A program made the position numbers and the translations under genes. From Halichondria panicea (Eukaryota > Porifera > Demospongiae > Suberitida > Halichondriidae): a stretch of 64,000 nucleotides of DNA. The DNA is taken from assembly GCF_963675165.1 (NCBI RefSeq), contig NC_087382.1, positions 4,441,963 to 4,505,962 of the forward strand. Direction: 5' to 3'. The notes under the pieces are model-generated. The model was not told where the DNA came from. It made no database searches and saw only the letters and a program-made list of their open reading frames with translations. Of this stretch, positions 19,955 through 64,000 are shown one piece after another (position 1 is the first letter of the stretch; every line of letters starts with the position of its first letter).

Positions 19955-20069
19955 ATAATTATAATTATGGTGATCAGGTGACATTGAAATGAAAACACAT
20001 AGCTACATGTATATAGCTAACGGAACAGTATTTAAAACAACATAATGGGAAACATCGTACTCTGCATGG

Positions 20070-22051
<1,982 letters not shown>

Positions 22052-23946: not shown

Positions 23947-25028
23947 AAAATGGTAGTGTACACAATACAAGACTGATGATAGAGAAATCGCTCTCTTGGA
24001 TCAAGAGTGAGTTACCCTAAAATAGGTATGTAGCCATGCTTTTGGATGTTTTAGGAGATTCACTGCCAACGCTTGCAGAATCAGAAATAGGACGCCGGAA
24101 CGTTGCCGTGGTCACAACACAACTATACAATACTGCCGGTAATGAATTGTTCATTATACATACTGTTGATTTGATATATTCATGATGATAGAATTCCCAA
24201 ATAAACTTGTTACGAAGAGACACTTTTTCTGGGCAGGAGAAAGAAGTTAAATCTCATGTGCTTACGATTGGAAAGTTTTGATTATGCTCACTTCTTTAAA
24301 TTTGAAATGCTGGCATCCAAGCATCACCTACGAATCGTTGATGATCATGAGCAATATATATAGTATACTATAGTATAGGACACTCCATCTCCTCATGTGC
24401 TACTTACATACTCAATGTATATTCGGTGTCTTTATAGTTATAGAATTTAGTCATCTTAGGAACAATTAAACATTCAAATTCAAAATGGATCAAGTTTATA
24501 CAATGTCAACAATAACTAGCTTCCTGTCACATAAAACTGACCATTGATTATTGAGAAAGAAGCATACTAGACTGTGATCTACATATTGAGACTTGCTGAG
24601 AAAAGACTATATTATAGCTGGACAAAATTGGTGGTGAGAAGAGTTACTTGTTAGAATCCTATAGGCACTGTCATGCATGCATGCATCCCTTATATAATTA
24701 TAGCTGTATACTTATCCATGAGGGATTAACTGAACTCTTTAGCTTAGGTAACATAATTGTGCCCTCATGCATAATTATATGCACACTATCACAATTTCAA
24801 GTTAAGCCTAATTATGCCCACGTTCTACTTATCTTTATTTGCAGATCATGCAATACCTAGCTGTTTTCAACTAGACTTCAACTCCATAATAATAACAATA
24901 CACTGCTGTACAAAAGTATAGATCCACTGACATAATTATTAGAAAAATTACAAATCACGAATTAATATAGACCTTGAAGTTACATCAAAAAATCCATTGC
25001 ATGCCCATGCAAAGCTATCGACTGGAAA
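23947..25028 (+). promoter_or_regulatory. 5' flank of gene A1 (conserved with A2 and A3 flanks)
   Basis: From about 24130 this is clearly homologous to the flanks of A2 (38340-39173) and A3 (50560-51393), although more diverged. Shared segments include 'gatgatagaattcccaaata', 'acactttttctgg' and 'aatatagaccttgaagtt'. It is therefore the upstream regulatory part of the duplicated unit. No coding frame and no defined promoter element can be supported. Confidence 0.55.
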
Positions 25029-28000
25029 ATGGCGAAAATGTTTGTCAGCAATCACCTTCGGCAGCACATTTTCATGGTGGTAGCACTTATCGTATACTCG
25101 AGTGGCAGTGAGTTGTACACAATTGTGCCATCAAACTTTACTGGCACTTGTCCTCATGAACCATGCATATCACTAAATGTTCTTCCATCTGGATTGAATG
25201 TAACATTTAATCAAAGCATCAGCCTGCATTTCCTTCATGGCGAACACTTGTTGGAGGAGATCATTGGAATACAAGGACTTCCTGGCATTGAAATGGCAGT
25301 TTCAAGCAACTGTTCACAATGTAGTCCAATAATCCTCTGCAACGGACCAGCTTCTGGTATCATCTTTCAAAATATCCATTCCGTTGAAATAGTTGGACTT
25401 ACGTTCTCAGGATGCTCACACCAGGGAACAACTGGTTATGGTGGCGCTTTATCTTTCTCTAATGTGACGAATATTTTAGTTGCTAATAGTAATTTTATTG
25501 ATAACTACATCATTGGACAAACGACTAGTGGGGGAGGAGCAATTTTCATACTACAATCACTTAAAGTTAACTTTGAAAACTGTTCCTTTATCAACAATTC
25601 AGCCCAGTGTCAACCTGGTGGCCTTGCCAATTACTGTAGCAAATACAAATTCAATGGAGGTGCTATGTATCTTTTGGAGTGCATGAATGTGAGTATAAGC
25701 GATTGCCAATTCCTTCAAAATAGAGCAATAGCTGGGGCAGCACTTATTGCCATATCTTCTCTGATTCAAATCAGTGGTACAGTTTTTGCTCACAATGGTG
25801 CACAACCAACCTATGGTGGCACGGCAGCATTTTTCGATAGCACTGTTCACATTCATCAAACCCTCTTCACGAACAATATTGCTTACACGGGTGGAGCCAT
25901 TTTTGCCACAAAAACACAGCTATCACTACTTGAATGTCAATTCAAGCAAAACAGTGTGTATAATTTAGGAGGAGCAAGTTTTATTCAGCATAGTTCTCTT
26001 ATAATTTTACGCAGTCTCTTTGTAAGAAACATTGCACTCACAGGCTCGATTGTTTATGCCCGTAACTGCAGTATCACTTCTATAAATAGCTCCTACCTCA
26101 ACAACAATGCTACTGCCAATGGAGGCATATATGCTGATGATGGATCAGCCATATTTAGCAGTGGTAGCTACTACACGGGAAACAGAGCAAAAGTTGGTGC
26201 AGTATATTACATCAGCAACGGTTTCACATATTCATCAAATAACACGTTCACAAACAACAGTGCTGTCTCAGACAACGAGTTTGCATTCGGTGGAATTATT
26301 TTTTGCAATTGCAATTCTGAATTTTCTAAAACACCTTGCTTCCTGAGCCTTAACAATAACAATCTTATGAACAACTATGTCAATGAAGGATCCGGAGGTG
26401 TCATATTTAGCGGAGACTGTGCTCTTACAGACATACAAAATTACTATTACAAGAATAACGGTAGAGTAATATATCAGAGTTCGGGTTCTTTGATAGTGAA
26501 TGGAAGTCATTTCGAAAGTAACACATCACCAATGGGTGTTATAGCGCTAAATATACCAACTAAGAGCACAATTGTTACAGCAGCATTATTTCATGCCAAC
26601 AGCGCACGCTTGGGAAGTGCAATGTTCATTCTATCCTCATTTCCCGTGTATATTTCCGATACTATTTTTTTTAACAATCAAGTAAGTGAATCTGGAACTG
26701 TTTTTAGCGGATTGGTCAACACCCAGTTGAAAAAACCCGGGATTATATCGATTGTAAACTGTTACTTTGTGCAAAATAACGCTCATAATGAAGGTGGTGC
26801 TATATACATCTTTGGAGATTCCATCAGGAATAAACAACAACTACAATTGTCAAATTCTAATTTTTACAACAATACAGGTAATGCAGTTAGTGGATTTGGA
26901 TTCACATTAATGGCATTTAACTGTTCTTTCAAATACAATAATGCGTCATTGAATGTGTTGGGTGGAGCAATTCACATTAATGGAGATGCCTCAGTCTTTT
27001 CCTCAGAGTTTGTGATGAACAATCGAGGAGCCATCTTCATTAGAGGAGGAAAAATGATGATTTCAGGGAGCACATTTCGTGACAATGCAGGTGAACATGG
27101 TGCTGCTGTGTCCGTTTTCAACAACGGTAGTCTATATGTAACGAATTGCTTATTTGTTGGCAACAACGCATTAAAGTATGGTGGAGCCATAGCAGGCGCA
27201 CGTGCTGATTTAATATCGATTGAAAGCAGTGTGTATGAAAACAATACAGCATTAAGAGGAGGGGCTGTTGGCATCATCAATGGCAAACTAGAATGCCGAG
27301 ATACCTACTTTACGAACAACACCAGCCTGGAGCTTGGAGGAGCAGTTTACGTTTATGGTGGATCGTTATACTCACGACACACAAACTATGTGGGCAACTT
27401 TGCTGCCCATACAGGTGGTGCAATCGCAGCTGTATCAGGTGAAGTGTATAGTGATAGGGATTGCTATTTAAGTAACCATGCCAATCAGTATGCTGGAGCT
27501 GTATATATCACCACTTGTTTTTGGCACGATAATTTTAATGAAGGAGAATTTGAAACTGTTGTCATAACACCAATTCTGTTGCTTTCTGTGGCACAGTGTA
27601 ACATAAACACTCAACTGATTAATACTGAGGCCGGTGGAAGCAAGTTACATCTGATCGAAAATGTTACACTTTTCAACAACTCTTGTGAACTAACCGGAGG
27701 AGCTATTCTTGCTATTAAAACTGGCGTATTCTTTGAGGGCAGAGAAGCTATTACTGTGAGCTCAAACTCAGCTGGGTATGGAGGGGGGCTGACATTATTG
27801 TGGAGCAATCTCAACATTTCTTGCAGTGTACAGTTTACACAAAATGCAGCTCACATTTCAGGTGGTGGGATCTTGACGTACAATGGTGTTGTGGAATTAT
27901 CATTCAGCGAGCAAAGATCGGGAATATTTGCTCTAAACACGGCAACTCTAACAGGAGGTGGTATACACGCTATTAACTCAGGTATTAACTTAGTCTCGGG

Positions 28001-30587
28001 ATATTTTGAGCTAACGAAGAATATTGCCACTTATGGTGGTGCACTCTACTTGAGCAGTAACTCTAAACTCCATTTAATCAAGCAAAAGCAAGTATCGATC
28101 AGCCGAGATGACCTGAAACTTGTGCTCAGAGAAAACTCAGCTCAGAAAGGGGGCGGGATGTTCATTAACGATTCTGATATTGGACAGCAATGCGTGTCAC
28201 AACTTTCTTCAGAAGAATGTTTCCTTCAAACTCTGCTGCTCAATTCCACATCAGCACCATTGAGGGACACAAACTACTTGAATTTATATTTTGTCAAAAA
28301 CACTGCGAGTGTGAGTGGTGATGCTATATTCGGCGGCCTACTAGACAGATGCTCTTTGAGTCCTTCAAATGAACTTCTTTTGGACTTTTCCGATTATTCT
28401 TCCTCACACAACGGAGCTGACTACGTGCAGACCATTGCAATGTTCATCGATCAGTTTAACTATAGTAACCTGACATTTCCATTAGCTGGCAAAACAAACA
28501 TCAAAGATTTTATTTCTTCTGAACCACTTCAAATTTGCTTCTGTCTTCAGCAGCAACACAACTGTAGCTATTTCAAGCATGCACCTATTTACACGAAGAA
28601 AGGTCAATTCTTTGAAGTCAGCATTGTAGCAGTTGACCAGTTAGGGAATCCAGTGAATGCCACGGTGATCAGCTCAGTTATCAACAATGCTATACTAGCT
28701 AATGTTGATCAAACGAGACAAGCAATCTCTTCCAAATGCTCGTCCATAGAGTATGCCATGTACCCACAAGATGAATTTAATTCTGCAGAAATTGAGCTTT
28801 TTGCTGATGGTCCCTGTAATGATATTGGGATATCTAAACGAGTATTAACTGTGATTTTTCAACCATGTACATGTCCAATTGGATTCTATCCTCAGGAAAC
28901 TAGAACGCTGTGCTCCTGCATGTGTGACCCACTGTTAGAGTTATATATAACAGGCTGCTCACTGGTGAACGAAACTGTTTTTCGAAAGCCTTACGTATGG
29001 ATAGACTTTATAAACAGAAGCAATGTATCTGGATATTTACTGCATGACAGTTGTCCATTTGACTATTGTCTGAATGAGCTTGTCAGTGTGAACTTAAATA
29101 CAGCTCATGGTGCAGATTCTCAATGTGCATTCAATCGCACTGGAACGCTGTGTGGTGCCTGCAAAGAGAACCTAAGTGCTGTGCTTGGCAGCTCACAATG
29201 TAGAGAGTGTACCAATGGTTATATTTCTCTGCTCATAGCGTTTGCAATGGCAGGGATCGCATTGGTTGCATTTATAATGGTGCTTAATATGACCATAGCT
29301 ATTGGTACAATCAATGGACTTATGGTTTATGCAAACATAGTTTTTGCAAAACGATCTCTCTTATTGCCACAAAGAACGTCAAAATTCCTAACAATTTTCA
29401 TTTCATGGCTTAATCTTGACCTCGGAATCGAGACTTGTTTTTATGATGGAATGGACTCGTATTCAAAAGCTCTTCTCCAGTTAGTGTTTCCTTCATACGT
29501 CATCCTATTAACTGCAGCTCTTATTATACTTGCAAAGTATTCGGTGGGATTCTCAACTTTCATTGGCAGGAAAAGGGATCTGGCTGGCACACTGTGCACG
29601 CTTATCCTGCTCTCTTATTCCAAGTTCATACGCACAATCATTACCAACTTACAGTATACGTACATCACATATCCGGATAACACCTGGGATATCGTGTGGT
29701 TACATGATGCAAACATCCCTTATTTCAAACCTAGTCATTTTCCACGATTAATAGCAGCGTTTGTAATTATCATAGTTGTGTTAATATACACTTCTCTCAT
29801 CTTGTTCGGTCAATGGCTTCCTAAGTTTGATGAAAAGCGGGCACTAAAGTGGATCAAACAACTTGTCGGCAAACATTATAAACCATTTGCACCCCAACAC
29901 AGTTATTGGGTCGGATTGCTGCTACTTGTTCGTGCCTTGCTACACATTGTTGCCACTTGTTTTTCAGACCAAACATCGTTACTATTTTCTTTCTGCATTG
30001 TGCTTTTTCTGATACTACTTAAGCTACTGACAACTCATATTTATCGATTGAAAACTCTTGAGATACTTGAATCCTCATTTCTCGTCAACCTTGGAGTACT
30101 TTCGGTAGTTCAGTATTATGTGCATGACAATGCAAGAATGGCAGCAGTTGTAGCAGATCTATCTGTAGCTGTGGCTGCTATCACGTTTATACTCATCTTA
30201 GGGTATCACATCTATACTTTTATATTGAAAGAAATAACATGGTTGGTAAAAACGACTCGCTCTATTAAAAATCTTGTGCATTTACGTGAAAGACAGCAGA
30301 ATGTAGTGGTCCAGTTTCAAGATCATCTGCAGCCGCTACAAGATGAACAAGATGAAGAACTTCACGAACCGCTCGTTGAAAGAGAAGTACCTGATGTTGC
30401 TACAAATGTCTATGATCCTCCTGTAATCCAGCCAGCTGTTCGATACAGTCAACCACGTCATGCAGACCTTGAGGAACTACTGAAGCCTATCACCGACGAT
30501 GACTACAGGAGACTCAACCAACCGAATCGACGATATCCTCAACCCACAACATATGCATTGGTCGAAATTCACAAGAACAACAACTGA
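25029..30587 (+). CDS. Giant beta-helix multi-span membrane protein A1
   Basis: A single uninterrupted exon of 1852 codons. Signal peptide (HIFMVVALIVYSSGS), then a conserved N-terminal block (IVPSNFTGTCPHEPCISLNV). Right-handed beta-helix coils fill about residues 100-1130, with recurring 'NN.A..GGAI/GGAV'. Then come AVDQLGNPVNATV (about 1200), CTCPIGF (about 1280) and the Cys module GTLCGACKENLSAVLGSSQC (about 1371). Eight or nine hydrophobic segments span about 1396-1733, including LLSYSKFIRTI. The cytoplasmic tail, about 1734-1852, has DDDYRRL and ends TTYALVEI. Many NxS/T sequons fit an extracellular, glycosylated helix. The ATG at 25038 (MFVSN) is conserved in A2 and A3, so it may be the true start. 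No GPS autoproteolysis site was seen. A receptor or adhesion role is inferred; the fold is well supported. Confidence 0.9.
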   Translation: MAKMFVSNHLRQHIFMVVALIVYSSGSELYTIVPSNFTGTCPHEPCISLNVLPSGLNVTFNQSISLHFLHGEHLLEEIIGIQGLPGIEMAVSSNCSQCSPIILCNGPASGIIFQNIHSVEIVGLTFSGCSHQGTTGYGGALSFSNVTNILVANSNFIDNYIIGQTTSGGGAIFILQSLKVNFENCSFINNSAQCQPGGLANYCSKYKFNGGAMYLLECMNVSISDCQFLQNRAIAGAALIAISSLIQISGTVFAHNGAQPTYGGTAAFFDSTVHIHQTLFTNNIAYTGGAIFATKTQLSLLECQFKQNSVYNLGGASFIQHSSLIILRSLFVRNIALTGSIVYARNCSITSINSSYLNNNATANGGIYADDGSAIFSSGSYYTGNRAKVGAVYYISNGFTYSSNNTFTNNSAVSDNEFAFGGIIFCNCNSEFSKTPCFLSLNNNNLMNNYVNEGSGGVIFSGDCALTDIQNYYYKNNGRVIYQSSGSLIVNGSHFESNTSPMGVIALNIPTKSTIVTAALFHANSARLGSAMFILSSFPVYISDTIFFNNQVSESGTVFSGLVNTQLKKPGIISIVNCYFVQNNAHNEGGAIYIFGDSIRNKQQLQLSNSNFYNNTGNAVSGFGFTLMAFNCSFKYNNASLNVLGGAIHINGDASVFSSEFVMNNRGAIFIRGGKMMISGSTFRDNAGEHGAAVSVFNNGSLYVTNCLFVGNNALKYGGAIAGARADLISIESSVYENNTALRGGAVGIINGKLECRDTYFTNNTSLELGGAVYVYGGSLYSRHTNYVGNFAAHTGGAIAAVSGEVYSDRDCYLSNHANQYAGAVYITTCFWHDNFNEGEFETVVITPILLLSVAQCNINTQLINTEAGGSKLHLIENVTLFNNSCELTGGAILAIKTGVFFEGREAITVSSNSAGYGGGLTLLWSNLNISCSVQFTQNAAHISGGGILTYNGVVELSFSEQRSGIFALNTATLTGGGIHAINSGINLVSGYFELTKNIATYGGALYLSSNSKLHLIKQKQVSISRDDLKLVLRENSAQKGGGMFINDSDIGQQCVSQLSSEECFLQTLLLNSTSAPLRDTNYLNLYFVKNTASVSGDAIFGGLLDRCSLSPSNELLLDFSDYSSSHNGADYVQTIAMFIDQFNYSNLTFPLAGKTNIKDFISSEPLQICFCLQQQHNCSYFKHAPIYTKKGQFFEVSIVAVDQLGNPVNATVISSVINNAILANVDQTRQAISSKCSSIEYAMYPQDEFNSAEIELFADGPCNDIGISKRVLTVIFQPCTCPIGFYPQETRTLCSCMCDPLLELYITGCSLVNETVFRKPYVWIDFINRSNVSGYLLHDSCPFDYCLNELVSVNLNTAHGADSQCAFNRTGTLCGACKENLSAVLGSSQCRECTNGYISLLIAFAMAGIALVAFIMVLNMTIAIGTINGLMVYANIVFAKRSLLLPQRTSKFLTIFISWLNLDLGIETCFYDGMDSYSKALLQLVFPSYVILLTAALIILAKYSVGFSTFIGRKRDLAGTLCTLILLSYSKFIRTIITNLQYTYITYPDNTWDIVWLHDANIPYFKPSHFPRLIAAFVIIIVVLIYTSLILFGQWLPKFDEKRALKWIKQLVGKHYKPFAPQHSYWVGLLLLVRALLHIVATCFSDQTSLLFSFCIVLFLILLKLLTTHIYRLKTLEILESSFLVNLGVLSVVQYYVHDNARMAAVVADLSVAVAAITFILILGYHIYTFILKEITWLVKTTRSIKNLVHLRERQQNVVVQFQDHLQPLQDEQDEELHEPLVEREVPDVATNVYDPPVIQPAVRYSQPRHADLEELLKPITDDDYRRLNQPNRRYPQPTTYALVEIHKNNN
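30546..30563 (+). other. TTYALV tail motif of A1 (TxYxxV)
   Basis: Codons for T-T-Y-A-L-V, tyrosine at residue 1842, ten residues before the C-terminus. It fits the immunoreceptor tyrosine-based switch consensus TxYxx[VI]. Same position in A3 (56989-57006). The B counterparts read TTYSVV (37132-37149 in B1, 48971-48988 in B2, 62886-62903 in B3). Binding of SH2 proteins is inference. Confidence 0.6.
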
Positions 30588-31854: not shown

Positions 31855-34800
31855 ATGAATTATCTGTCCGTTGTACTACTGGTAGCAACATTGTTATCAT
31901 GTCCGAACCACCTGGATTGTACATCCATGGCAACAGTTGTAGTCCCTGGTAACTTCACTGATGCATGTCCTCAAGAACACTGCTCCACCATCAATGATTT
32001 ACCATCTAGTATCTTCAACAACAGTATGCAACTACATTTTCTTTCTGGTCAACACCTCTTGCAACGACACATTTCTATGCACAACATCCCCAGCGGCCAT
32101 GTTCAAATTTCCTCTTCATGCTCCAGCCCACAGTGTAATACAATAATTCTCTGCCAGGGAGGACCAACTGGAATGAGCTTTCAAAATATCCAGACTGTTG
32201 AAATAGCTGGACTTACGTTCTCAGGTTGCACACACCAGGGAGAGGTCGGCTTTGGTGGTGCAATATCTTTCATAAATGTCACAAACATTTCGATAGTCAA
32301 CTGTCATTTCATTGGCAACCATATTACTGGGAACATTGGAGGTGGCGCACTCTACGTATCTCAATCACAAAGTGTGAGCATTCGGAATAGTTCTTTTGTT
32401 AATAACTATGCGTATTTGTCAATTCATCAATGTAGTGGTGCTGCGTTTTTTCAGAACAACAATTTCGTCCTAATACAACATACTCTTTTTAAAAACAACA
32501 CAGCCACTTCTGGAGGAGCAATCTTTGCTGATCAGATTGACCTCACCCTGCATCAGAGTAGCTTCTTCCAGAATAACGCAACAGATTCGGGAGGTGCAGT
32601 AGATACTCTAAATTCTTTGATAGTGATTATTGAAAGTGAATTTGAGAGCAATTTGGCAATTTCGTCATCAGTCATTTATACACGCAACACTACTATTAGT
32701 ATTTTGAGCAGCTCTTTTTTAAACAACACAGCTGTAAGCACCGGAGGTATTTATATACAAGACGGCTCGGTTGTTAGGAGCAACAACAGTGTCTATTCCA
32801 ACAACAGTGCATTAGTAGGCTCTGTCTACATCTTATTCAAAGGTTCCAGTTTCTTTGTCAATAACACGTTCGTAAACAATCAAGTGGGTGGAGTGATAGT
32901 TGGTACTAGTTGTTCATTCATAGGTAACGATAATACATTCATTAATAATAATGCGATTATGTATATGACCAGCTGCAACTCTTCGTTCATTCGCAATCAG
33001 TTTATTAACAACGCTGCTGATTTGTATGGCATGTTGTTTCAGTATGGATCTTTGTCTATGTCAGAGACTACGTATGTGAGCAATTTTACAAGTGGTGCTA
33101 TTGCTGTGAACGATGTTTCAACAGCATTTTTTGCAGACAGTTCTTTCGAACAAAACAGCTTCCAATCAACACAATTGATAGGCAGTGCTATCAATGTTGT
33201 GGGTAATGTTAATCTAACAGTTTTAAGAAGTAACTTTTCTGAAAACCAGGCAACTTCTGGAGGGGCTATAGCCGCTACTAGTGGACCAGCAAGAATATTT
33301 ATTTCAGATTGCTATTTCTTTAACAATAGCGCTGCTTTTGGCGGAGCAATTTATTTCATTTTAACTGGAACAGACTCGGAATGTATCATTAGACACTCTT
33401 ATTTCATCAACAATTCAGCTACCAACGTTGGTGGTGCTATATACATTTTTTCCAACCTATTTACAACAATTCAAAATTGCTTCTTTCGTCACAATACTGC
33501 GAAATATAATGGGGGGGCAGTGTACATTCCCGAAGGACAGGTTAGAACTTTCAAATCTCGATTCTTAGATAACTTTGTTGATGAGTACGGCGGTGCCATT
33601 GCTATCAAAGGTGACATAACTACCACACAGTGCGAATATATTGGCAACACAGCAAACGAACGCGGTGGTGCATTATCAATTTTGAATGGTAACCTCAATA
33701 CTTCAAATAGCTTATTTGCACATAATAAAGGAAGACAATTCGGTGGAGCAATTTTCAGCAACAGATCAAGTGTTGCAATTTCAAACACCAAATTTTATTT
33801 CAACCAAGCTTCACTAGGAGGAGCCATCCATCATTTTGCCAGCAAAGTTAGCTGTAGAGAAACATCGTTTACAAACAACACAAGTAATGAATTTGGTGGG
33901 GCGGTTTATATTCAAAGCGGATCACATTCTTCTCAAACAACTCAGTACAAGCTGAACAATGCTTCTGAAGCTGGGGGTGCAATATTTGCTCTTTCAAGCA
34001 ATGTATCGAGCAGCATGGACACATACCAAGGGAACATGGCCAATAAATATGGTGGAGCAGTCTACATCGACAGTTGTCCTTCAGTTTCAAGACCTTTTAG
34101 TGAAACAGGAAACAATTTAATTACTTCAATTGTTTTATTTGGGGAGCCAGTGTGTAGTAAATACAAAAACTATTTATTATCACGAGAACCGAATTGGTTG
34201 CAGATCAACGGCGGTTCATTATTCCTCGACAACTGGTGCAGTTTGGCAGGAGGTGCTGTTGTAGCCATCCATACTCAAGTATACGTTTCTGGTGATGGGC
34301 GTACGCTCATCAGAGGAAATTCAGCCACTCATGGAGCTGGGTTAGCACTTGTGTGGAGTAATGTGAGTATCTCTTGCCCCACACAATTGACAAACAATCA
34401 AGCTTCTATTTCCGGTGGGGGCATTTACATGTACAGTAGCAATATCCTTATCTACCTTGGAATAACTACAGTCGTGATTGAAGGTAACATTGCCACCAAA
34501 AGCGGAGGTGGTATCTATAGCAGTAAATCTAAAATTAAAGTTGTCGGAGGAAAGATGTGCTTTTCTAAGAATAATGCTACATACGGAGGTGCACTGTATA
34601 GCACTGACACCAAGTTGAATATAGTGAAACAAGAGGAAAATGATACATCAAAAATTTTGTTTACAAAAAATTCCGCTGTACAAGGAGGAGCTATTTACGT
34701 GATGGATGTAATTCAAGATTGTGAGACACGATATAATACGACGAAAGAGTGCTTTCTACAAACATTACTAAACAGATACAACGTAACAAAGGTCCCCAAC

Positions 34801-44492: not shown

Positions 44493-44496
44493 AATT
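44485..44496 (+). other. A2/B2 deletion junction
   Basis: A-type sequence ends with acgactcg at 44488. B-type sequence starts with aatttggcaattt at about 44493. The few bases between (ttga) match neither parent here and create the TGA. This is the signature of end joining with filler or slight microhomology. Confidence 0.85.
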
Positions 44497-47400: not shown

Positions 47401-49012
47401 TAAACACAAGTACTAAATCTGGCTATCTACTATATCCGAACTGCCCATTTGACTATTGTGTGGATGAGCTAGTTAGTGTGAACTTAAATACAGCTCATGG
47501 TGCAGATTCTCAATGTGCATTCAATCGCACTGGAACACTGTGTGGTGCCTGCAAAGAGAATCTAAGTGCTGTGCTTGGCAGCTCACAATGTAGAGAGTGT
47601 ACCAACAGTTTCATTTCTCTGCTAATACCATTTGCAATGGCAGGAATCGTCTTGGTTGCGTTTATAGTTCTATTTAACTTGACTGTAACTACGGGTACAA
47701 TCAATGGACTTATCTTTTATGCAAACATGACTTTTGCAAATCGATCTCTGTTTGTACCCTCTGGAACTCCCGGTTTGCTCCGAATATTCATTTCATGGCT
47801 TAACCTTGATCTTGGAATCGAAACTTGCTTTTATAATGGAATGGACTCGTATGCTAAAGTTCTTCTTCAACTAGTGTTTCCTTCCTACATTCTCATATTG
47901 ACCGTACTGATCATCATGCTTTGTGAGTATTCGGTGAGATTTTCAACATTCATAGGCAAGAAGAGAGATCCTGTTGGGACACTGTGCACACTTATCCTGC
48001 TCTCCTATTCCAAGTTCATTCGCACGATCATTGCAAGCTTACAGCATGCATACTTAAACTATCCGGATGGCTCCAGTGAAACAGTCTGGTTGTATGATGC
48101 TAATGTTCCCTACTTCAAACCAAGTCACGCTCCACGGTTCATTACAGTGTCAGTAATCATTATTCTGGGACTGGTGTATACAGTGCTTCTTCTGTTTGGC
48201 CAGTGGTTGACCAAACTCGGTGGATGGATCCCTTTCCGCTGGGTCAACAACCCAAAGTACAATGAGTTCATTGTTAAATACCATACACAGCTTAAACCCA
48301 AACATCGATACTGGGTAGGATTGTTGCTGCTTGTTCGAATCTCTTACTACACTGTGTCAGCCTTTGTCTCACAATCTGCCGCCCTACTGTTTCTTATCCT
48401 CATTGTTCTTATTCTATTAAGTCTCAAGCACATTGCCAGTCATGTATATGAAGTTAATGCAATTGATAACTTAGAGAGTGCTTTTTTGATTAATCTTGGA
48501 GTCCTAGCAGCTTGCTTATACTTCTTGCAAGACAGTGAAGGAATCCCGCCTATAGCTGCCAGTATATCTATAACAGTTTCTTCGTTTTTTTCATTATGAT
48601 TTTTGGATATCATGCCTACACCTTCATTCTCAAGAACACACGTCTCTGGATAAGAATAATTGCTCTACTCAGGCCAGTTTGGGTGCGTATGAGAGTGTTA
48701 GCGCAGTGTCCTAATCTACGACGAAACGCAGATATAGATCTACAAGAAGAAGAAGAAGTTGAGCATGAGGAAAATCAACTTTTGTTGCAAGAGCTTCCAT
48801 ATGCACAAGGAGAGTCTGACGATGAAGAACAACATCCGTATGAGGCTCCAATAATCCAGCCTGCTGTTAGAGACAGCCAACCTCGGAACCAAGACCTCGT
48901 ACAACTTTTCCAACCGATAACTGAGCGAGACTACAGACGTTTTCAAGAGCCTTTTAGGCCACAACAACCCACGACATATTCAGTTGTTGAGATCGACCGA
49001 AACCCTGAATGA
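44496..49012 (+). pseudogene. B2, 5'-truncated and frameshifted copy of B1
   Basis: It begins inside the beta-helix at the residue matching about B1 264 (LAISSSVIYTRN), with no signal peptide or promoter of its own. It stays in frame to 48599, where a run of eight T in B1 (36744 region) is seven T here. The rest of the protein continues in the next frame (48596-49012: IMIFGYHAYTF to TTYSVVEIDRNPE). It is in the same frame as A2 across a single TGA. The T-run change could be an assembly error. Without readthrough it should not be secreted. Confidence 0.85.
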
Positions 49013-54300: not shown

Positions 54301-57021
54301 GGTGTTGTGGAATTATCATTCAGCGAGCAAAGATCGGGAATATTTGCTCTAAACACGGCAACTCTAACAGGAGGTGGTATACACGCTATTAACTCAGGTA
54401 TAAACTTGGTCTCGGGATATTTTGAGCTAACGAAGAATATTGCCACTTATGGTGGTGCACTGTACATGAGCAGTAACTCTAAAATTTACTTAATCAAGCA
54501 AAAGCAAAAATCCATCAGCCGAGATGACCTGAAACTTGTACTCAGAGAAAACTCAGCACAGAAAGGGGGCGGGGTGTTTATTAACGATTCTGATATTGGA
54601 CAGCAATGCGTTTCACAACTTTCTTCAGAAGAATGTTTCCTTCAAACTCTGCTGCTCAATTCCACATCAGCACCATTGAGGGACAAAAACCTCTTGAACA
54701 TATTTTTTGTCAACAACACTGCGAGTATGAGTGGTGATGCTATATTTGGTGGGCTACTAGACAGATGCTCTTTGAGTCCTTCAAATGAACTTCTTTTGGA
54801 CTTTTCAGACTATTTTTCCTCACACAACGGAGCTGACTATGTGCAGATCATTGCAACGTTCAGTGATCAGTTTAACTACAGTAACCTAACATTTCCATAC
54901 AGCCCATATCGTGAACAAATAGAGGTAAATCACAACAAAAATATCAATGATCTTATTTCTTCCAAACCACTTCAAATTTGCTTCTGTCTTCAGCAGCAAC
55001 ACAACTGTAGCTATTTCAAGCATGCACCTATATACACGAAGAAAGGTCAATTCTTTGAAGTCAGCATTGTAGCAGTTGACCAGTTAGAGAATCCAGTGAA
55101 TGCCACAGTTATCAGCTCAGTTATCAACAATGCCAAACTAGCTAATGTTGATCAAACAAGACAAGCACTCTCTTCCAAATGCTCGTCCATAGAGTATGCC
55201 ATTTACCCACAAGATGAATTCAATTCTGCAAAAATCGAGCTTTTTGCTGATGGTCCCTGTAATGATATCGGGATATCTAAACGGGTATTAACTGTGATTT
55301 TTCAACCGTGTACATGTCCAATTGGATTCTATCCTCAGGAAACTAGAACGCTGTGCTCCTGCGTGTGTGACCCACTGTTAGAGTCGTATATAACAGGCTG
55401 CTCACTGGTGAAAGAAACTGTTTTTCGAAAGCCTTACGTGTGGATAGACTTTGTAAACAGAAGCAATGTATCTGGATATTTACTGCATGACAGTTGTCCA
55501 TTTGACTATTGTGTGGATGAGCTTGTCAGTGTAAACCTAAATACAGTTCATGGTGCAGATTCTCAATGTGCGTTCAATCGCACTGGAACACTGTGTGGTG
55601 CCTGCAAAGAGAACCTAAGTGCTGTGCTAGGCAGCTCACAATGCAGAGAGTGTACCAACAATTTTATTTCTCTGCTCATACCATTTGCCATGGCAGGAAT
55701 CGCCTTGGTTGCGTTTATAGTGGTGCTTAATATGACCATAGCTATTGGTACAATCAATGGACTTGTTTTTTATGCAAACATCGTTTTTGCAAATCGACCT
55801 CTCTTATTGCCACCAAAAACATCAAAATTCCTAACAATTTTTATTTCATGGCTTAATCTTGACCTCGGAATCGAGACTTGTTTTTATGATGGAATGGACT
55901 CGTATGCTAAAACTCTTCTCCAGGTAGTGTTTCCTTCATACGTCATCCTATTAACTGCAGCTATCATTGCACTTGCAAATTGTTCGGTGAGATTCTCCAA
56001 TTTCATTGGCAGGAAAAGGGATCTGGCTGGCACACTGTGCACGCTTATCCTGCTCTCGTATTCCAAGTTCATACGCACAATCATTACCAACTTACAGTAT
56101 ACGTACATCACCTATCCAGATGACACCTGGGATATCGTGTGGTTACATGATGCGAACATCCCTTATTTCAAACCTAGCCATTTTCCAAGATTAATAGCAG
56201 CGTTTGTAATTATCATAGTTGTGTTAATATACACTTCTCTCATCTTGTTCGGTCAATGGCTGCCTAAGTTTGATGAAAAGCAGGCACTAAAGCGGATGAA
56301 ACAATTTGTCAACAAACATTTTGAATCATTTGCACCCCAACACAGTTATTGGGTTGGATTACTGCTACTTGTTCGTGCCTTGCTACACATTGTTGCCACT
56401 TGTTTCTCAGACCAAATATCGTTACTATTTGTGTTCTGCATTGTGCTTATTCTGATACTACTCAAGCTACTGACGACTCATATTTATCAATCGAAAAAGT
56501 TAGAGATGCTTGAATCCTCATTTCTCGTCAACCTTGGAGTGCTTTCGGTAGTTCAGTATCATGTGCTTACAAACGCAAGAATGGCAGCAGCTGTAGCAGA
56601 TCTATCTGTAGCTGTGGCTGCTATCACGTTTATACTCATCTTAGGGTACCACATCTATACCTTTATATTGAAAGAAACAACATGGTTGGTAAAAACGACT
56701 CGCTCTATTAAAAATCTTGTGCATTTACGTGAAAGACAGCAGAATGTAGTGGTCCAGTTTCAAGATCATCTGCAGCCGCTACAAGATGGACAAGATGAAG
56801 AACTTCACGAACCACTCGTTGAAAGAGAAGTACCTGATGTTGCTACAAATGTCTATGATCCTCCTGTAATACAGCCAGCTGTTCGATACAGTCAACCACG
56901 TCATGCAGACCTTGAGGAAATATTGGAACCTATCACCGACGATGACTACAGGAGACTCAACCAACCGAATCGACGATATCCTCAACCCACAACATATGCA
57001 TTGGTCGAAATTCACAAGTAA
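51394..57021 (+). CDS. Giant beta-helix multi-span membrane protein A3
   Basis: A full-length A-type protein of 1875 codons by the longest frame, or 1861 from the conserved ATG at 51436 (MFVNGHLRQ). Signal peptide LIFMVVALIIYSSGS, the IVPSNFTGTCPHEPCISLNV block, beta-helix coils, AVDQLENPVNATV, CTCPIGF, GTLCGAC, eight or nine membrane segments, and a tail with DDDYRRL and terminal TTYALVEI. It differs from A2 at very few sites, but several changes cluster at 52570-52820 (for example YVNSGGVISSG against YVNERSGGVILSG in A2, three residues shorter). A1 is more distant. Confidence 0.9.
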   Translation: MHCMPKAIDWKLATMFVNGHLRQLIFMVVALIIYSSGSQGCSELYTIVPSNFTGTCPHEPCISLNVLLSELNGTFNQSISLHFLHGEHLLEEIIGIQRLPGIEMSVSSNCSQCSPIILCNGPASGIIFQNIHSVEIVGLTFSGCSHQGTPAYGGALSFYNVTNILVANSNFIDNYIIGQTTSGGGAIFILQSLKVNLENCSFINNSAQCQPGGLADYCSSYTFNGGAMYLLKCMNVSISDCQFLQNRAIAGAALLVTSSLIQISGTVFAHNGAQPTYGGTAAFFESTVHIHQTLFTNNIAYTGGAIFATKTQLSLLECQFKQNSAYNLGGASFIQHGFLIISRSLFVRNIALTGSIVYASNCSITSTNSSYLNNNATANGGIYVKEGSAIFSSDSYYTGNRAKIGAAYFISNSFTYSSNNTFTNNSAISDNEFAFGGIIFCNCNSEFSKTPCFLNLNDNNVMNNYVNSGGVISSGDCALTDIQNYYYKNNGRVIFQSSGSLIVNGSHFESNKSPLGVIALNKPTKSTIVTKTLFHANSGVSGSAIHIQSSFPVYISDTTFFNNQVSKSGTVFSTSAGLVNTQGNKLRIISIVNCYFVQNNAHNEGGAIYIYGHFISNEQQQLQLSNSYFYNNIGGAVNGFGFTLMAFNCSFKNNIAPFGLLGGAIHINGDASVFSSEFVMNDRGAIFITGGKMMISGSTFRENVGDKGAAVSIFNNGSLYVTNCLFVGNKAVKYGGAIAGVRADLISIESSVYENNTALRGGAVGTVNGKLECRDTYFTNNTSLELGGAVYVYGGSLYSRHTQYVGNFATHTGGAIAAVSGEVYSDGDCYLSNHANQYAGAIYITTCFWQDDFNEGEFETVVITPILLLSVAQCNVNTQLINTEAGGSKLHLIENITLFNNSCELTGGAILTIKTDVFFEGREAITVSLNSAGYGGGLALLWSNLNISCNVQVTQNAAHISGGGILTYNGVVELSFSEQRSGIFALNTATLTGGGIHAINSGINLVSGYFELTKNIATYGGALYMSSNSKIYLIKQKQKSISRDDLKLVLRENSAQKGGGVFINDSDIGQQCVSQLSSEECFLQTLLLNSTSAPLRDKNLLNIFFVNNTASMSGDAIFGGLLDRCSLSPSNELLLDFSDYFSSHNGADYVQIIATFSDQFNYSNLTFPYSPYREQIEVNHNKNINDLISSKPLQICFCLQQQHNCSYFKHAPIYTKKGQFFEVSIVAVDQLENPVNATVISSVINNAKLANVDQTRQALSSKCSSIEYAIYPQDEFNSAKIELFADGPCNDIGISKRVLTVIFQPCTCPIGFYPQETRTLCSCVCDPLLESYITGCSLVKETVFRKPYVWIDFVNRSNVSGYLLHDSCPFDYCVDELVSVNLNTVHGADSQCAFNRTGTLCGACKENLSAVLGSSQCRECTNNFISLLIPFAMAGIALVAFIVVLNMTIAIGTINGLVFYANIVFANRPLLLPPKTSKFLTIFISWLNLDLGIETCFYDGMDSYAKTLLQVVFPSYVILLTAAIIALANCSVRFSNFIGRKRDLAGTLCTLILLSYSKFIRTIITNLQYTYITYPDDTWDIVWLHDANIPYFKPSHFPRLIAAFVIIIVVLIYTSLILFGQWLPKFDEKQALKRMKQFVNKHFESFAPQHSYWVGLLLLVRALLHIVATCFSDQISLLFVFCIVLILILLKLLTTHIYQSKKLEMLESSFLVNLGVLSVVQYHVLTNARMAAAVADLSVAVAAITFILILGYHIYTFILKETTWLVKTTRSIKNLVHLRERQQNVVVQFQDHLQPLQDGQDEELHEPLVEREVPDVATNVYDPPVIQPAVRYSQPRHADLEEILEPITDDDYRRLNQPNRRYPQPTTYALVEIHK

Positions 57022-57608: not shown

Positions 57609-60600
57609 ATGAATTATCTGTCCGTTGTACTACTGGTAGCAACATTGTTATCATGTCCGAACCACCTGGATTGTACATCCATGGCAACAGTTGTAGTCCC
57701 TGGTAACTTCACTGATGCATGTCCTCAAGAACACTGCTCCACCATCAATGATTTATCATCTAGTATCTTCAACAACAGTATGCAACTACATTTTCTTTCT
57801 GGTCAACACCTATTGCAACGACACATTTCTATGCACAACATCCCCAGCGGCCATGTTCAAATTTCCTCTTCATGCTCCAGCCCACAGTGTAATACAATAA
57901 TTCTCTGCCAGGGAGGACCAACTGGAATGAGCTTTCAAAATATCCAGACTGTTGAAATAGCCGGACTTATGTTCTCAGGTTGCACACACCAGGGAGAGGT
58001 CGGCTTTGGTGGTGCAATATCTTTCATAAATGTCACAAACATTTCGATAGTCAACTGTCATTTCATTGGCAACCATATTACTGGGAACATTGGAGGTGGC
58101 GCACTCTACATATCTCAATCACAAAGTGTGAGCATTCGGAATAGTTCTTTTGTTAATAACTATGCGTATTTGTCAATTCATCAATGTAGTGGTGCTGCGT
58201 TTTTTCAGAACAACAATTTCGTCCTAATACAACATACTCTTTTTAAAAACAACACAGCCACTTCTGGAGGAGCAATCTTTGCTGATCAGATTGACCTCAC
58301 CCTGCATCAGAGTAGCTTCTTCCAGAATAACGCAACAGATTCGGGAGGTGCAGTAGATACTCTAAATTCTTTGATAGTGATTATTGAAAGTGAATTTGAG
58401 AGCAATTTGGCAATTTCGTCATCAGTCATTTATACACGCAACACTACTATTAGTATTTTGAGCAGCTCTTTTTTAAACAACACAGCTGTAAGCACCGGAG
58501 GTATTTATATACAAGACGGCTCGGTTGTTAGGAGCAACAACAGTGTCTATTCCAACAACAGTGCATTAGTAGGCTCTGTCTACATCTTATTCAAAGGTTC
58601 CAGTTTCTTTGTCAATAACACGTTCGTAAACAATCAAGTGGGTGGAGTGATAGTTGGTACTAGTTGTTCATTCATAGGTAACGATAATACATTCATTAAT
58701 AATAATGCGATTATGTATATGACCAGCTGCAACTCTTCGTTCATTCGCAATCAGTTTATTAACAACGCTGCTGATTTGTATGGCATGTTGTTTCAGTATG
58801 GATCTTTGTCTATGTCAGAGACTACGTATGTGAGCAATTTTACAAGTGGTGCTATTGCTGTGAACGATGTTTCAACAGCATTTTTTGCAGACAGTTCTTT
58901 CGAACAAAACAGCTTCCAATCAACACAATTGATAGGCAGTGCTATCAATGTTGTGGGTAATGTTAATCTAACAGTTTTAAGAAGTAACTTTTCTGAAAAC
59001 CAGGCAACTTCTGGAGGGGCTATAGCCGCTACTAGTGGACCAGCAAGAATATTTATTTCAGATTGCTATTTCTTTAACAATAGCGCTGCTTTTGGCGGAG
59101 CAATTTATTTCATTTTAACTGGAACAGACTCGGAATGTATCATTAGACACTCTTATTTCATCAACAATTCAGCTACCAACGTTGGTGGTGCTATATACAT
59201 TTTTTCCAACCTATTTACAACAATTCAAAATTGCTTCTTTCGTCACAATACTGCGAAATATAATGGGGGGGCAGTGTACATTCCCGAAGGACAGGTTAGA
59301 ACTTTCAAATCTCGATTCTTAGATAACTTTGTTGATGAGTACGGCGGTGCCATTGCTATCAAAGGTGACATAACTACCACACAGTGCGAATATATTGGCA
59401 ACACAGCAAACGAACGCGGTGGTGCATTATCAATTTTGAATGGTAACCTCAATACTTCAAATAGCTTATTTGCACATAATAAAGGAAGACAATTCGGTGG
59501 AGCAATTTTCAGCAACAGATCAAGTGTTGCAATTTCAAACACCAATTTTTATTTCAACCAAGCTTCACTAGGAGGAGCCATCCATCATTTTGCCAGCAAA
59601 CTTAGCTGTAGAGAAACATTGTTTACAAACAACACAAGTGATGAATTTGGTGGGGCGGTTTATATTCAAAGCGGATCACATTCTTCTCAAACTACTCAGT
59701 ACAAGCTGAACAATGCTTCTGAAGCTGGGGGTGCAATATTTGCTCTTTCAAGCAATGTATCGAGCAGCATGGACACATACCAAGGGAACATGGCCAATAA
59801 ATATGGTGGAGCAGTCTACATCGACAGTTGTCCTTCAGTTTCAAGACCGTTTAGTGAAACAGGAAACAATTTAATTACTTCAATTATTTTATTTGGGGAG
59901 CCAGTGTGTAGTAAATACAAAGACTATTTATTATCACGAGAACCGAATTGGTTGCAGATCAACGGCGGTTCATTATTCCTCGACAACTGGTGCAGTTTGG
60001 CAGGAGGTGCTGTTGTAGCCATCCATACTCAAGTATACGTTTCTGGTGATGGGCGTATGCTCATCAGAGGAAATTCAGCCACTCATGGAGCTGGGTTAGC
60101 ACTTGTGTGGAGTAATTTGAGTATCTCTTGCCCCACGCAAGTAACAAGCAATCAAGCTTCTATTTCCGGTGGGGGAATTTACATGTACAGTAGCAATATC
60201 CTTATCTACCGTGGAACAACTTCAGTCGTGATTGAAGGTAACATTGCCACCAAAAGTGGGGGTGGTATCTATAGCAGTAAATCTAAAATTGAAATTGTCG
60301 GAGGAAAGATGTACTTTTCTAAGAATAATGCTACGTACGGAGGTGCACTGTATAGTATTGACACCAAGTTGAATATAGTGAAACAAGAGGAAAATGATAC
60401 ATCAAAAATTTTGTTTACGGAAAATTCCGCTGTACAAGGGGGAGCTATTTACGTGATGGATGTAATTCAAGATTGTGAGACACAATATAATACGACAAAA
60501 GAGTGCTTTCTACAAACATTACTAAACAGATGTAACGTAACAAAGGTCCCCAACAACTATTTTAATGTCTACTTTATTAATAATACTGCAAGTCTAAGCA

Positions 60601-62927
60601 GTAATGCCATTTTTGGAGGACTACTGGACAGATGCTCATTGAACCCAGCAAACGAACTACTTCTTGATTTTCCTAACCAAACATTCCTGAGTGGAGCCGA
60701 CTATATTCTAGCTACTGCACAGTTCGCTGGTCTGATTGATTATAGTAATCTGACAGCCAACTTCAACCCTGAAAACGTTTTGCAAGCAGTGAGCGGTGCA
60801 TTTGTCCAAGATTTTGTTTCTTCAGAACCCCTTCAAGTATGTTATTGCTTCGGATACCAGCCTAATTGTAGCAACTTCCAACATGCACCTGTGTACGTAA
60901 AGAAGGGACAGCTGTTTTCAATTAGTGTAATTGCGGTTGATCAGGTGGGCAATCCAGTGAATGCGACAGTGATCAGCTCCGTTGTCACAGGTAGCCGACT
61001 ACTCAACAGTAATAAAGCACTTCAACGTATTCCCGCAGAATGTTCACTTCTTGAATACTCCCTCTATCCAGACCAAAGTGACCCAACAGCCGACATTGAA
61101 CTTTTCGCAAGTGGTCCCTGCAACAATATTGGGGTATCTAAACGAACATTAAACGTGATTTTTCAACCGTGTATATGTCCAATTGGATTTCAGCAAAGGG
61201 AGACCAGAACACAGTGTTTGTGTGAGTGTGATACAGTATTACAATCGTATATAACAAGCTGTTCCCCGGAAAATGAAACCGTGCTTAGAAGACCCAATGT
61301 GTGGATAGACTATGTAAACACAAGTACTAAATCTGGCTATCTACTATATCCGAACTGCCCTTTTGACTATTGTGTGGATGAGCTAGTCAGTGTGAACTTA
61401 AATACAGCTCATGGTGCAGATTCTCAATGTGCATTCAATCGCACTGGAACACTGTGTGGTGCCTGCAAAGAGAATCTAAGTGCTGTGCTTGGCAGCTCAC
61501 AATGTAGAGAGTGTACCAACAGTTTCATTTCTCTGCTAATACCATTTGCAATGGCAGGAATCGCCTTGGTTGCGTTTATAGTTCTATTTAACTTGACTGT
61601 AACCATGGGTACAATCAATGGACTTATCTTTTATGCAAACATGATTTTTGCAAACCGATCTCTGTTTGTACCCTCTGGAACTCCTGGTTTGCTCCGAATA
61701 TTCATTTCATGGCTTAACCTTGATCTTGGAATCGAAACTTGCTTTTATAATGGAATGGATTCGTATGCTAAAGTTCTTCTTCAACTAGTGTTTCCTTCCT
61801 ACATTCTTATTTTGACCGTACTGATCATCATGCTTTGTGAGTATTTGGTGAGATTTTCAACGTTCATAGGCAAGAAGAGAGATCCTGTTGGGACACTGTG
61901 CACACTTATCCTGCTCTCGTATTCCAAGTTCATTCGCACGATCATTGCAAGCTTACAGCATGCATACTTAAACTATCCAGATGGTTCCAGTGAAACAGTC
62001 TGGTTGTATGATGCTAATGTTCCCTACTTCAAACCAAGCCACGCTCCACGGTTCATTACAGTGTCAGTAATCATTATTCTGGGACTGGTGTATACAGTGC
62101 TTCTTCTGTTTGGCCAGTGGTTGACAAAACTCGGTGGATGGATCCCTTTCCGCTGGGTCAACAACCCAAAGTACAATGAATTCATTGTTAAATACCATAC
62201 ACAGCTTAAACCGAAACATCGATACTGGGTAGGATTGTTGCTGCTTGTTCGAATCTCTTACTACACTGTGTCAGCCTTTGTCTCACAATCTGCCGCCCTA
62301 CTGTCTCTTATCCTCATTGTGCTTATTCTATTAAGTCTCAAGCATATTTCCAGTCATGTATATGAAGTTAATGCAATTGACAACTTAGAGAGTGCTTTTC
62401 TAATTAATCTTGGAGTCCTAGCAGCTTGCTTATACTTCTTGCAAGACAGCGAAGGAATCCCGCATATAGCTGCCAGTATATCTATAACAGTTTCTGCGTT
62501 TCTTTTTATTATGATTTTTGGATATCATGCCCACACCTTCATTCTCAAGAATACACGTCTCTGGATAAGAATAATTGCTCTACTCGGGCCAGTTTGGGTG
62601 CGTATGAGAGGGTTAGTGCAGTGTCCTAATCTACAACGAAACGCAGATATAGACTTACAAGAAGAAGAAATTGAGCATGAGGAAAATCAATTTTTGTTGC
62701 AAGAGCTTCCATATGCACAAAGAGAGTCTGACGATGAAGAACAACATCCGTACGAGGCTCCAATAATCCAGCCTGCTGTTAGAGACAGCCAACCTCGGAA
62801 CCAAGACCTCGAAGAACTTTTCCAACCGATAACTGAGCGAGACTACAGACGTTTTCAAGAGCCTTTTAGGCCCCCCCCACAACCCACAACATATTCAGTT
62901 GTTGAGATCGACCGAAATCCTGAATGA
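57609..62927 (+). CDS. Giant beta-helix multi-span membrane protein B3
   Basis: A full-length B-type protein, 1772 codons, intact. The N-terminal half is almost the same as B1. The C-terminal half carries many private changes (TANFNPENVLQAV, FQPCICPIGF, MGTINGLIFYANMIF). The tail has one fewer glutamate and FRPPPQPTTYSVVEI, where a C8 run (about 62872-62879) replaces the sequence coding for PQQP in B1. Domains and likely role are as for B1. Confidence 0.9.
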   Translation: MNYLSVVLLVATLLSCPNHLDCTSMATVVVPGNFTDACPQEHCSTINDLSSSIFNNSMQLHFLSGQHLLQRHISMHNIPSGHVQISSSCSSPQCNTIILCQGGPTGMSFQNIQTVEIAGLMFSGCTHQGEVGFGGAISFINVTNISIVNCHFIGNHITGNIGGGALYISQSQSVSIRNSSFVNNYAYLSIHQCSGAAFFQNNNFVLIQHTLFKNNTATSGGAIFADQIDLTLHQSSFFQNNATDSGGAVDTLNSLIVIIESEFESNLAISSSVIYTRNTTISILSSSFLNNTAVSTGGIYIQDGSVVRSNNSVYSNNSALVGSVYILFKGSSFFVNNTFVNNQVGGVIVGTSCSFIGNDNTFINNNAIMYMTSCNSSFIRNQFINNAADLYGMLFQYGSLSMSETTYVSNFTSGAIAVNDVSTAFFADSSFEQNSFQSTQLIGSAINVVGNVNLTVLRSNFSENQATSGGAIAATSGPARIFISDCYFFNNSAAFGGAIYFILTGTDSECIIRHSYFINNSATNVGGAIYIFSNLFTTIQNCFFRHNTAKYNGGAVYIPEGQVRTFKSRFLDNFVDEYGGAIAIKGDITTTQCEYIGNTANERGGALSILNGNLNTSNSLFAHNKGRQFGGAIFSNRSSVAISNTNFYFNQASLGGAIHHFASKLSCRETLFTNNTSDEFGGAVYIQSGSHSSQTTQYKLNNASEAGGAIFALSSNVSSSMDTYQGNMANKYGGAVYIDSCPSVSRPFSETGNNLITSIILFGEPVCSKYKDYLLSREPNWLQINGGSLFLDNWCSLAGGAVVAIHTQVYVSGDGRMLIRGNSATHGAGLALVWSNLSISCPTQVTSNQASISGGGIYMYSSNILIYRGTTSVVIEGNIATKSGGGIYSSKSKIEIVGGKMYFSKNNATYGGALYSIDTKLNIVKQEENDTSKILFTENSAVQGGAIYVMDVIQDCETQYNTTKECFLQTLLNRCNVTKVPNNYFNVYFINNTASLSSNAIFGGLLDRCSLNPANELLLDFPNQTFLSGADYILATAQFAGLIDYSNLTANFNPENVLQAVSGAFVQDFVSSEPLQVCYCFGYQPNCSNFQHAPVYVKKGQLFSISVIAVDQVGNPVNATVISSVVTGSRLLNSNKALQRIPAECSLLEYSLYPDQSDPTADIELFASGPCNNIGVSKRTLNVIFQPCICPIGFQQRETRTQCLCECDTVLQSYITSCSPENETVLRRPNVWIDYVNTSTKSGYLLYPNCPFDYCVDELVSVNLNTAHGADSQCAFNRTGTLCGACKENLSAVLGSSQCRECTNSFISLLIPFAMAGIALVAFIVLFNLTVTMGTINGLIFYANMIFANRSLFVPSGTPGLLRIFISWLNLDLGIETCFYNGMDSYAKVLLQLVFPSYILILTVLIIMLCEYLVRFSTFIGKKRDPVGTLCTLILLSYSKFIRTIIASLQHAYLNYPDGSSETVWLYDANVPYFKPSHAPRFITVSVIIILGLVYTVLLLFGQWLTKLGGWIPFRWVNNPKYNEFIVKYHTQLKPKHRYWVGLLLLVRISYYTVSAFVSQSAALLSLILIVLILLSLKHISSHVYEVNAIDNLESAFLINLGVLAACLYFLQDSEGIPHIAASISITVSAFLFIMIFGYHAHTFILKNTRLWIRIIALLGPVWVRMRGLVQCPNLQRNADIDLQEEEIEHEENQFLLQELPYAQRESDDEEQHPYEAPIIQPAVRDSQPRNQDLEELFQPITERDYRRFQEPFRPPPQPTTYSVVEIDRNPE

Positions 62928-64000
62928 CAGTAACAAGTAGTGTGTATCAATCACCCATCGAATTATATGTTATTATTATTATTATGTTCCTCCTTTAATT
63001 CATCCTGTGAAACACACATTCAGCTAGCTATATAGCTCAATGACATAATTTACGTTAGAAATCTGTTCTCATCCTTCAAATCACATTCATCATTAACTAG
63101 ATAGATAGATTCGTTAGATACTCTTAGCCACCTACACACACATTCAATATATTGGCACTATAATTATTTTGTTATACTATAGTGTACAATTATAATTCTG
63201 CAAATTGGTTATCAATACAAGGGGGGGGTGGTACACGACAAATGTTATACTGAGGGAATTTTAAGGAAAGTTAGCACTCAATACTATATAGCTGCAACCT
63301 ATAATCTGTTATTCATGCATGCATGTTAATAATAATGCGCAACCAAATCTAACCACACTTGTTGCCCTTTGACCTCCAAGATCAAAGAAAATGTAGCATT
63401 ATTTTTATATTCTATTGCAGTGCCACTATTATTATGATAAGAGGAAATGCATGGCAAATACAATTTAAAGTAGACAGAATAAATCAGAACAAGCCAATCA
63501 CCTTCAAGATTTGCTGCAAGCATAGACACTGGTTAGGACAAATACAGCGGCCACATTTTGTAAAATCGCTTGTCTTATACTGCAATGGAATCGGTAGGTG
63601 TAACATCTGTAGAATTTTTCAAACTCTCTGTTAGTCTGTACCATGTCGTTGTTATGCCGAAATGCCAGATGTTTATTAAATGATTGCATGCATGTGAGTC
63701 ATATATACAATGGATGATCGATATACACTAATTTGTTACTGTCATTCAGGGTTTCGGTCGATCTCGAATATTTTGTGGGTTGTTGTGGCCTAACAGGCTC
63801 TTGAAAACATCTGTAGTCTTTATTGACTTGTGGCAGCAGCTATAAGCTTACCCTATCTTTCTTGTTGGTGAATCAACACTTCACCAACATGAGATCTAAC
63901 CTGACATGAGTCCCAAATAAACTTTGAACAGACCACTGCAATAGCTATCTACTGTCAATGGACTGGGGGACCAAATAGTACAGGCGGTAGCTGTCCCTGA
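62928..64000. other. B3 3' flank, start of the next spacer
   Basis: It matches the sequence after B1 and B2 (caatcacccatcgaattata onward), with local indels and simple-sequence growth such as a ttattattatt tract near 62970 and a G7 run near 63222. 63900-64000 matches 37690-37790, so the tandem array, or at least its spacer, continues beyond the window. Confidence 0.6.

Follow-up and report, generated by a model that had tools for sequence, protein, structure and literature searches.

A 64,000-nt stretch of the genome of the sponge Halichondria panicea (hereafter the window) carries an array of six long open reading frames (ORFs), which in the ORF listing lie on the plus strand, alternate in the order A-B-A-B-A-B and span positions 25029 to 62927 (Table 1; C6 in coordinates denotes the window's own contig). 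These ORFs are real and not chance frames, since frames of ~1800 codons show purifying substitution, and sequence comparison shows that they belong to a family of roughly two hundred genes, mostly single-frame and of the birth-and-death type. We favour, at about even chances, the reading that the family encodes multi-pass, adhesin-like surface receptors with a germ-line-built repertoire, the rods of which would bind ligands.

The order of parts claimed in a first-pass annotation of the window, i.e. leader, beta-helix, GTLCGAC, membrane segments and tail, was found at the sequence level in the complete copies, and the members follow one plan: a hydrophobic leader is followed by a rod built of Pmp-like beta-helix coils of ~26 residues each, behind which come the Cys module, G[TVI]LCGxC, the hydrophobic segments and finally a short tail. 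Hydropathy placed 8-10 segments behind the Cys module, versus the eight to nine proposed at first, and marked a strongly hydrophobic C-terminus. Compared with Pfam, B1 scored 82.7 bits with Chlam_PMP and 46.9 bits with Beta_helix, both above cut-off, and the rod of the distant member C2 scored 92.2 bits with the Pmp repeats (cut-off 20.6); NCBIfam returned only the Pmp repeat (77.9 bits in B1, and 14.5 bits in A1, below the cut-off of 15). The spacing of glycine pairs peaked at 26 residues in A1, B1 and the upstream member C1, and turnover of coil units was seen in the rods of L033 and C2, which carry tandem units of 78 nt (window 1140-1846 in C2); no such units were found in the A1-B1 DNA. 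N-glycosylation sequons numbered 34 (A1) and 37 (B1) before the Cys module versus 2 and 4 after it. From these features we infer the fold, the topology and the surface location of the proteins.

Across eight diverse members, the invariant columns concentrate at two places, the Cys module and the surroundings of LD[LF]GIETCF, and a twelve-row tree of the Cys/membrane part set A and B apart from C1/L033/L035 and from L034/L036. A1, B1, C1, L033 and L035 have in common the tail stretch P-[VI]-I-x-x-A-x-R-x-x-Q-x-R, and the A and B tails end in TTYxxVEI, which matches the tyrosine motif TxYxxV but is short enough that the match may have arisen by chance. The Cys module appears to resemble DUF7630 (PF24633) weakly: this 45-position model overlaps the module and matched all eight diverse members at E ≤ 1 (best 5.6e-4), with 10.7 bits in A1, below the cut-off of 27. 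Among the best 150 of 349 candidates in the genome, at least four places exceeded that cut-off (27.6-27.9 bits versus 27), of which three lay in family loci. No paper naming DUF7630 was found in the literature search.

The first-pass annotation had described three A-B pairs of single-exon genes; six frames in A-B order are indeed present, but only two pairs are complete, as A2 and B2 are cut. The complete single frames, A1, B1, A3 and B3, comprise 1772 to ~1860 codons, with protein identities of 90.3% for A1-A3, 96.8% for B1-B3 and 48.7% for A1-B1. Over the whole frame, the ratios of nonsynonymous to synonymous substitution (dN/dS) were 0.36 (A1-A3), 0.28 (B1-B3) and 0.24 (A1-B1), and because substitution is purifying over the whole frame, the rod behaves as one translated unit with the membrane part. 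Between B1 and B3 the ratio was 0.12 in the membrane part and 0.43 in the rod.

The family extends far beyond the array. All counts given here are lower bounds, because only the best-scoring share of the candidates was scored for each query. By scoring the best 25 of 564 first-look candidates of the full-length A1 query, at least 25 loci were obtained on contigs C4, C6, C10 and C14, with frames of 1368-2206 codons; for three C-terminal queries, the best 82 of 467, 82 of 464 and 93 of 444 candidates were scored. For the membrane part, two degenerate motifs were counted at 160 and 183 places, versus 0 and 1 for the reversed patterns; of the 100 places listed for the first motif, 80 lie no more than 250 nt from one listed for the second. 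After merging at 600 nt, at least 170 protein-matched loci were counted, 78 of them on C6, and at least 197 when motif-only loci were added, 94 of them on C6, a contig holding 5.8% of the bases; the latter C6 share is inflated and motif-only loci are under-counted past C6, because the listed motif places stop within this contig. The DUF7630 search adds C6:1109471, which is absent from the merged list. A total of 130 of the 197 loci lie within 20 kb of another, whereas 200 random trials, which ignored contig ends, gave 11.4 on average and 23 at most. Frames reach at least 900 codons in 136 and at least 1100 codons in 125 of the 170 loci, and stay below 700 codons in 20, the longest reported one being of 2847 codons in the member at G000:C6:3203752-3205095. 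Broken members occur as well, with in-frame stops in some loci and two frames each in L034 and L035, for which an intron in place of frame damage was rejected on junctions judged by eye. Thus the single tandem array of the first-pass annotation, which had itself proposed a count of loci, is present but understated the family, at least 170-197 loci being found genome-wide.

Within the window, comparison of the sequence with itself revealed a tandem segment running from inside B1 to inside A2 and again from inside B2 to inside A3, with 99.06% identity of 32650-37666 to 44493-49503 and 99.14% of 37665-44488 to 49874-56702, i.e. 47 and 62 differing columns in alignments of ~5.0 and ~6.8 kb. At the junction, 44488, A2 loses its tail and B2 its first ~265 codons, B2 starting at ~codon 266 of B1; A2 and B2 share a reading frame and are separated by one stop codon, and B2 falls out of frame near 48560 because a T run is shorter. 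For the array only, it is possible, at somewhat less than even chances, that A2/B2 is a mis-join of haplotypes in the assembly, with no second duplication and fewer genes in the true array: the 47 and 62 column differences are of a level that haplotypes could reach, and the junction interrupts both genes in mid-frame. However, close tandem copies and broken members are found elsewhere in the family, which makes a true duplication equally ordinary. The conclusion on the family is independent of the A2/B2 question.

Synonymous sites of A and B are close to saturation everywhere but around the Cys module: between A1 and B1, the synonymous divergence (dS) was 2.4 for the rod and 1.26 for the membrane part, but 0.30 for the Cys region. 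In a tract covering the module (Table 1), A and B copies differ at only 5-9 of 159 nt, as A copies do among themselves (7-9 of 159), whereas C1 differs from A or B at 60-64 of 150 nt; in the flanks, A-B differences amount to 43-54 of 168 and 228-242 of 528. As C1 is free to differ in this tract, gene conversion explains the sharing between A and B better than constraint does. A weaker excess of A-B similarity extends as far as residue ~1545, and another is seen around residues 103-133. B1 and B3 are mosaic, with few of their 123 differences before coding nt ~2509 and more beyond (maximum chi2 of the breakpoint 60.5 versus 19.0 as the highest in 2000 random placements). The copy turnover, truncation and mosaicism noted at first are therefore borne out by the tandem duplication, the cut A2/B2, the Cys-module conversion and the B1/B3 breakpoint, and the family is large and clustered, with the duplication, loss and gene conversion looked for in recognition-type multigene families.

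Just downstream of the window, the array continues as an inverted B4-A4 pair (C6:4506369-4517176). At the left window end, C2 shows ~39% identity with B1 in its C-terminal part. Frameshifted and with most of the tail missing, it is read in two frames that overlap, 865-2592 and 2-1030, of which the second continues beyond the window to C6:4440551. The lack of introns, regarded as notable in the first-pass annotation, holds insofar as one long frame is the rule among the members, but such frames are also seen in nearby ankyrin and STAND-type genes. In the 314 kb around the window, other long single frames include those of two ankyrin-repeat proteins (C6:4393316-4402537, 3074 codons, and C6:4433293-4438479, 1729 codons, both with a below-cut-off Roc match and the second also with a below-cut-off Death match) and one STAND-type ATPase (NB-ARC 28.5 bits, cut-off 23.5; NACHT 27.2 bits, cut-off 26.7). 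Among three Wnt regions of the same genome, those on contigs C3 and C12 match piecewise in separate frames and that on C6 within one 542-codon frame; these Wnt genes mark the genome as that of an animal.

Other features were recorded in and around the window. Pieces of a RecQ-like helicase on the plus strand, whose zinc-binding match of 16.8 bits misses the cut-off of 25, and DUF6589 on the minus strand (117.5 bits) are spread over several frames at 18214-21924. A 1.7-kb inverted repeat (11384-13114 and 14747-16481) is 99.1% identical, and a duplicated stretch (6776-7598 and 13558-14391) 84% identical, the second copy of which is overlain by a 347-codon ORF (13356-14399) with no Pfam match above cut-off; positions 3191-3390 are 200 N bases. 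Farther along the contig, C6:4568249-4573077 and C6:4593319-4598148 hold frames of 533 and 548 codons as two like pairs 25 kb apart, the first of which had no Pfam match at E ≤ 0.01. Rfam gave no match in the window or in the stretches L030, L031 and L032.

Table 1. Family members and related features in and around the window (window positions unless prefixed C6)
Feature	Position	Strand	Remarks
A1	25029..30587	+	Complete, one frame, 1852 residues; GTLCGAC codons 29142-29162; tail TTYALVEI from 30546
B1	31855..37173	+	Complete, one frame, 1772 residues; GTLCGAC 35692-35712; tail TTYSVVEI from 37132
A2	39174..44492	+	Tail-less A copy; TTG-start frame, first in-frame ATG 39216; stops with TGA at the duplication junction
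B2	44496..48599	+	B copy without the first ~265 codons, frameshifted near its end
A3	51394..57021	+	Complete, one frame; opens at 51394 (TTG), first in-frame ATG 51436; GTLCGAC 55585-55605
B3	57609..62927	+	Complete, one frame, 1772 residues; GTLCGAC 61446-61466; ~identical to B1 over the first ~2.5 kb, then more diverged
Tandem segment, copy 1	32650..44488	+	Inside B1 to inside A2; ~99% identical to copy 2
Tandem segment, copy 2	44493..56702	+	Inside B2 to inside A3; has ~370 additional bases, about 49504-49873
Putative conversion tract	29055..29213	+	A1 residues 1343-1395, Cys module; bounds picked post hoc
B4	C6:4506369-4510802	-	~290 rod residues fewer than B1, frame kept
A4	C6:4511555-4517176	-	Partner of B4 in the inverted pair
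C1	C6:4405019-4408981		Upstream member; GVLCGEC replaces GTLCGAC
C2	2..2592 (C6:4440551-4444554)	-	Distant member crossing the left window end; GVLCGEC replaces GTLCGAC

The statement that no characterised system has this domain order was upheld in Pfam, NCBIfam, PDB sequences and the full-text literature searched, where the architecture was absent from titles and abstract starts, most of the subscription literature lying outside the scope of these searches. By phmmer, A1 had no match among PDB sequences at E ≤ 1, and two alignment profiles (labelled A2 and A5, the latter of eight members) reached best E-values of 0.39 and 1.8, neither credible. A viral origin was rejected, as searches of viral contigs with the full proteins, with the C-terminal part and with the membrane core turned up no relative, and so was a prokaryotic one, as searches of prokaryotic contigs with the C-terminal part and the membrane core turned up none either; distant relatives could be missed by these scans because each uses only two short peptide patterns. 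Among phage records, B1 had one match, in a beta-helix stretch covering 14% of the query (30.5% identity, E 8e-6). As far as searched, therefore, the family is undescribed and has neither a curated model of its membrane domain nor a solved relative. Similar unnamed predicted proteins probably exist in other early animals, which weakens any claim of novelty.

The nearest likeness of the rod is to the Pmps of Chlamydia (PF02415, TIGR01376), which are beta-helix adhesins that vary by recombination: their repeats were measured above cut-off in B1 and the C2 rod. Unlike the Pmps, which have an autotransporter barrel, these proteins continue into a Cys module, behind which lies a helical membrane domain with many passes, and no C-terminal autotransporter beta-barrel family was found at E ≤ 1 in full A1, B1 or their C-terminal parts. 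SRCR and NLR are expanded immune receptor families of sponges, which also have aggregation factors; all of these have other domains, and none matched A1 or B1 at E ≤ 1. Large germline immune receptor families are reported for sponges in excerpts of PMC10855680 and PMC12909245. In Tetrahymena, MTA and MTB are described in an excerpt of PMC10901506 as paired genes for self/non-self recognition with a large variable outer region, a Cys-rich domain and, at the C-terminus, several membrane helices; this is a likeness of plan only, taken from the description and not from sequence, as MTA/MTB have five membrane helices after a Cys-rich GFR domain and split exons, in contrast to the 8-10 segments and single frames here. 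Adhesion G-protein-coupled receptors (GPCRs) also set a large modular outer part on a multi-pass domain (excerpt of PMC12716839), but no GAIN/GPS or 7tm_2 was found at E ≤ 1 in A1, B1 and the eight diverse members.

In the reading we favour, the leader would place the long right-handed beta-helix rod outside the cell, the compact Cys module would join it to a polytopic membrane domain, the core of which is most conserved, and the short tail would link this domain to the cell interior. Like Pmp-type adhesins, the rod would bind ligands, be they microbes, food particles or other cells, and this binding would be reported by the membrane part together with the tail. Tandem duplication by unequal exchange would copy and truncate genes, in-frame gain or loss of ~26-residue coils would change the rod, and gene conversion would keep the Cys module uniform as the rods drift. 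Recognition is the best-supported guess for the role; signalling, and a microbial or allogeneic ligand, are conjectured.

Several observations weigh against this reading. Convincing positive selection was not seen in 60-codon windows of the young A and B trios, the ratio of nonsynonymous to synonymous differences (pN/pS) exceeding 1 in only 4 of 60 windows (three at 1.06-1.13, and one at 2.38 on 2 synonymous changes), and the diversifying selection looked for in the outer part of recognition-type families was thus not found among these young paralogs. Between A1 and A3, dN/dS is 0.50 in the membrane part and 0.37 in the rod, so that here the membrane part is not the more constrained of the two. 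The A1 rod stays below the Pfam cut-offs for Chlam_PMP (13.5 of 20.6 bits) and Beta_helix, and the leader and membrane segments are predictions from hydropathy. The shared tail stretch is missing in L036 and in the complete L034 tail, so a common signalling route is not general.

The purifying substitution in the rods of young paralogs fits chemosensory or environmental sensors as well as immune receptors, and so does a large clustered, single-frame, multi-pass family; the rods would then bind dissolved or particulate cues, and the repertoire would be driven by ecology and not by self or microbe recognition. We consider this unlikely, as no GPCR or insect-receptor family was found at E ≤ 1 in the members scanned, and rods of ~900-1100 residues are unusual for known chemoreceptors. 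To a similarly low degree we would credit structural adhesion, i.e. cell-matrix or cell-cell glue without signalling, copied for dosage or tissue-specific adhesion. Pmp-like rods, many sequons and the finding of no catalytic or signalling domain in Pfam and NCBIfam scans of members all suit it, yet the Cys module and polytopic core, and not the rod, are best conserved, a glue needs one membrane pass, and part of the family shares the tail stretch. A histocompatibility-like system is improbable; C6 would be an allorecognition or immune chromosome, with the rods as polymorphic self-labels or receptors, neighbouring A and B as co-inherited partners, and Cys conversion keeping a shared signalling core as the rods diverge. 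Mechano- or ligand-gated channels, in which the 8-10-segment part would be an ion channel of the TRP or polycystin class that carries a giant lever on the outside, are the least probable, for the segment number and the idea of a rod coupled via the Cys module suit them, but no Pfam channel family at E ≤ 1 and no credible PDB sequence match was found.

Receptor families this large usually serve immunity, allorecognition or sensing, and sponges separate self from non-self sharply, with few surface receptors known. The adhesin-like receptor family favoured here, whose design of beta-helix rod, Cys module and multi-pass domain makes up roughly two hundred genes, with nearly half of the found loci on C6, may therefore supply concrete candidate receptors for self/non-self recognition in sponges.

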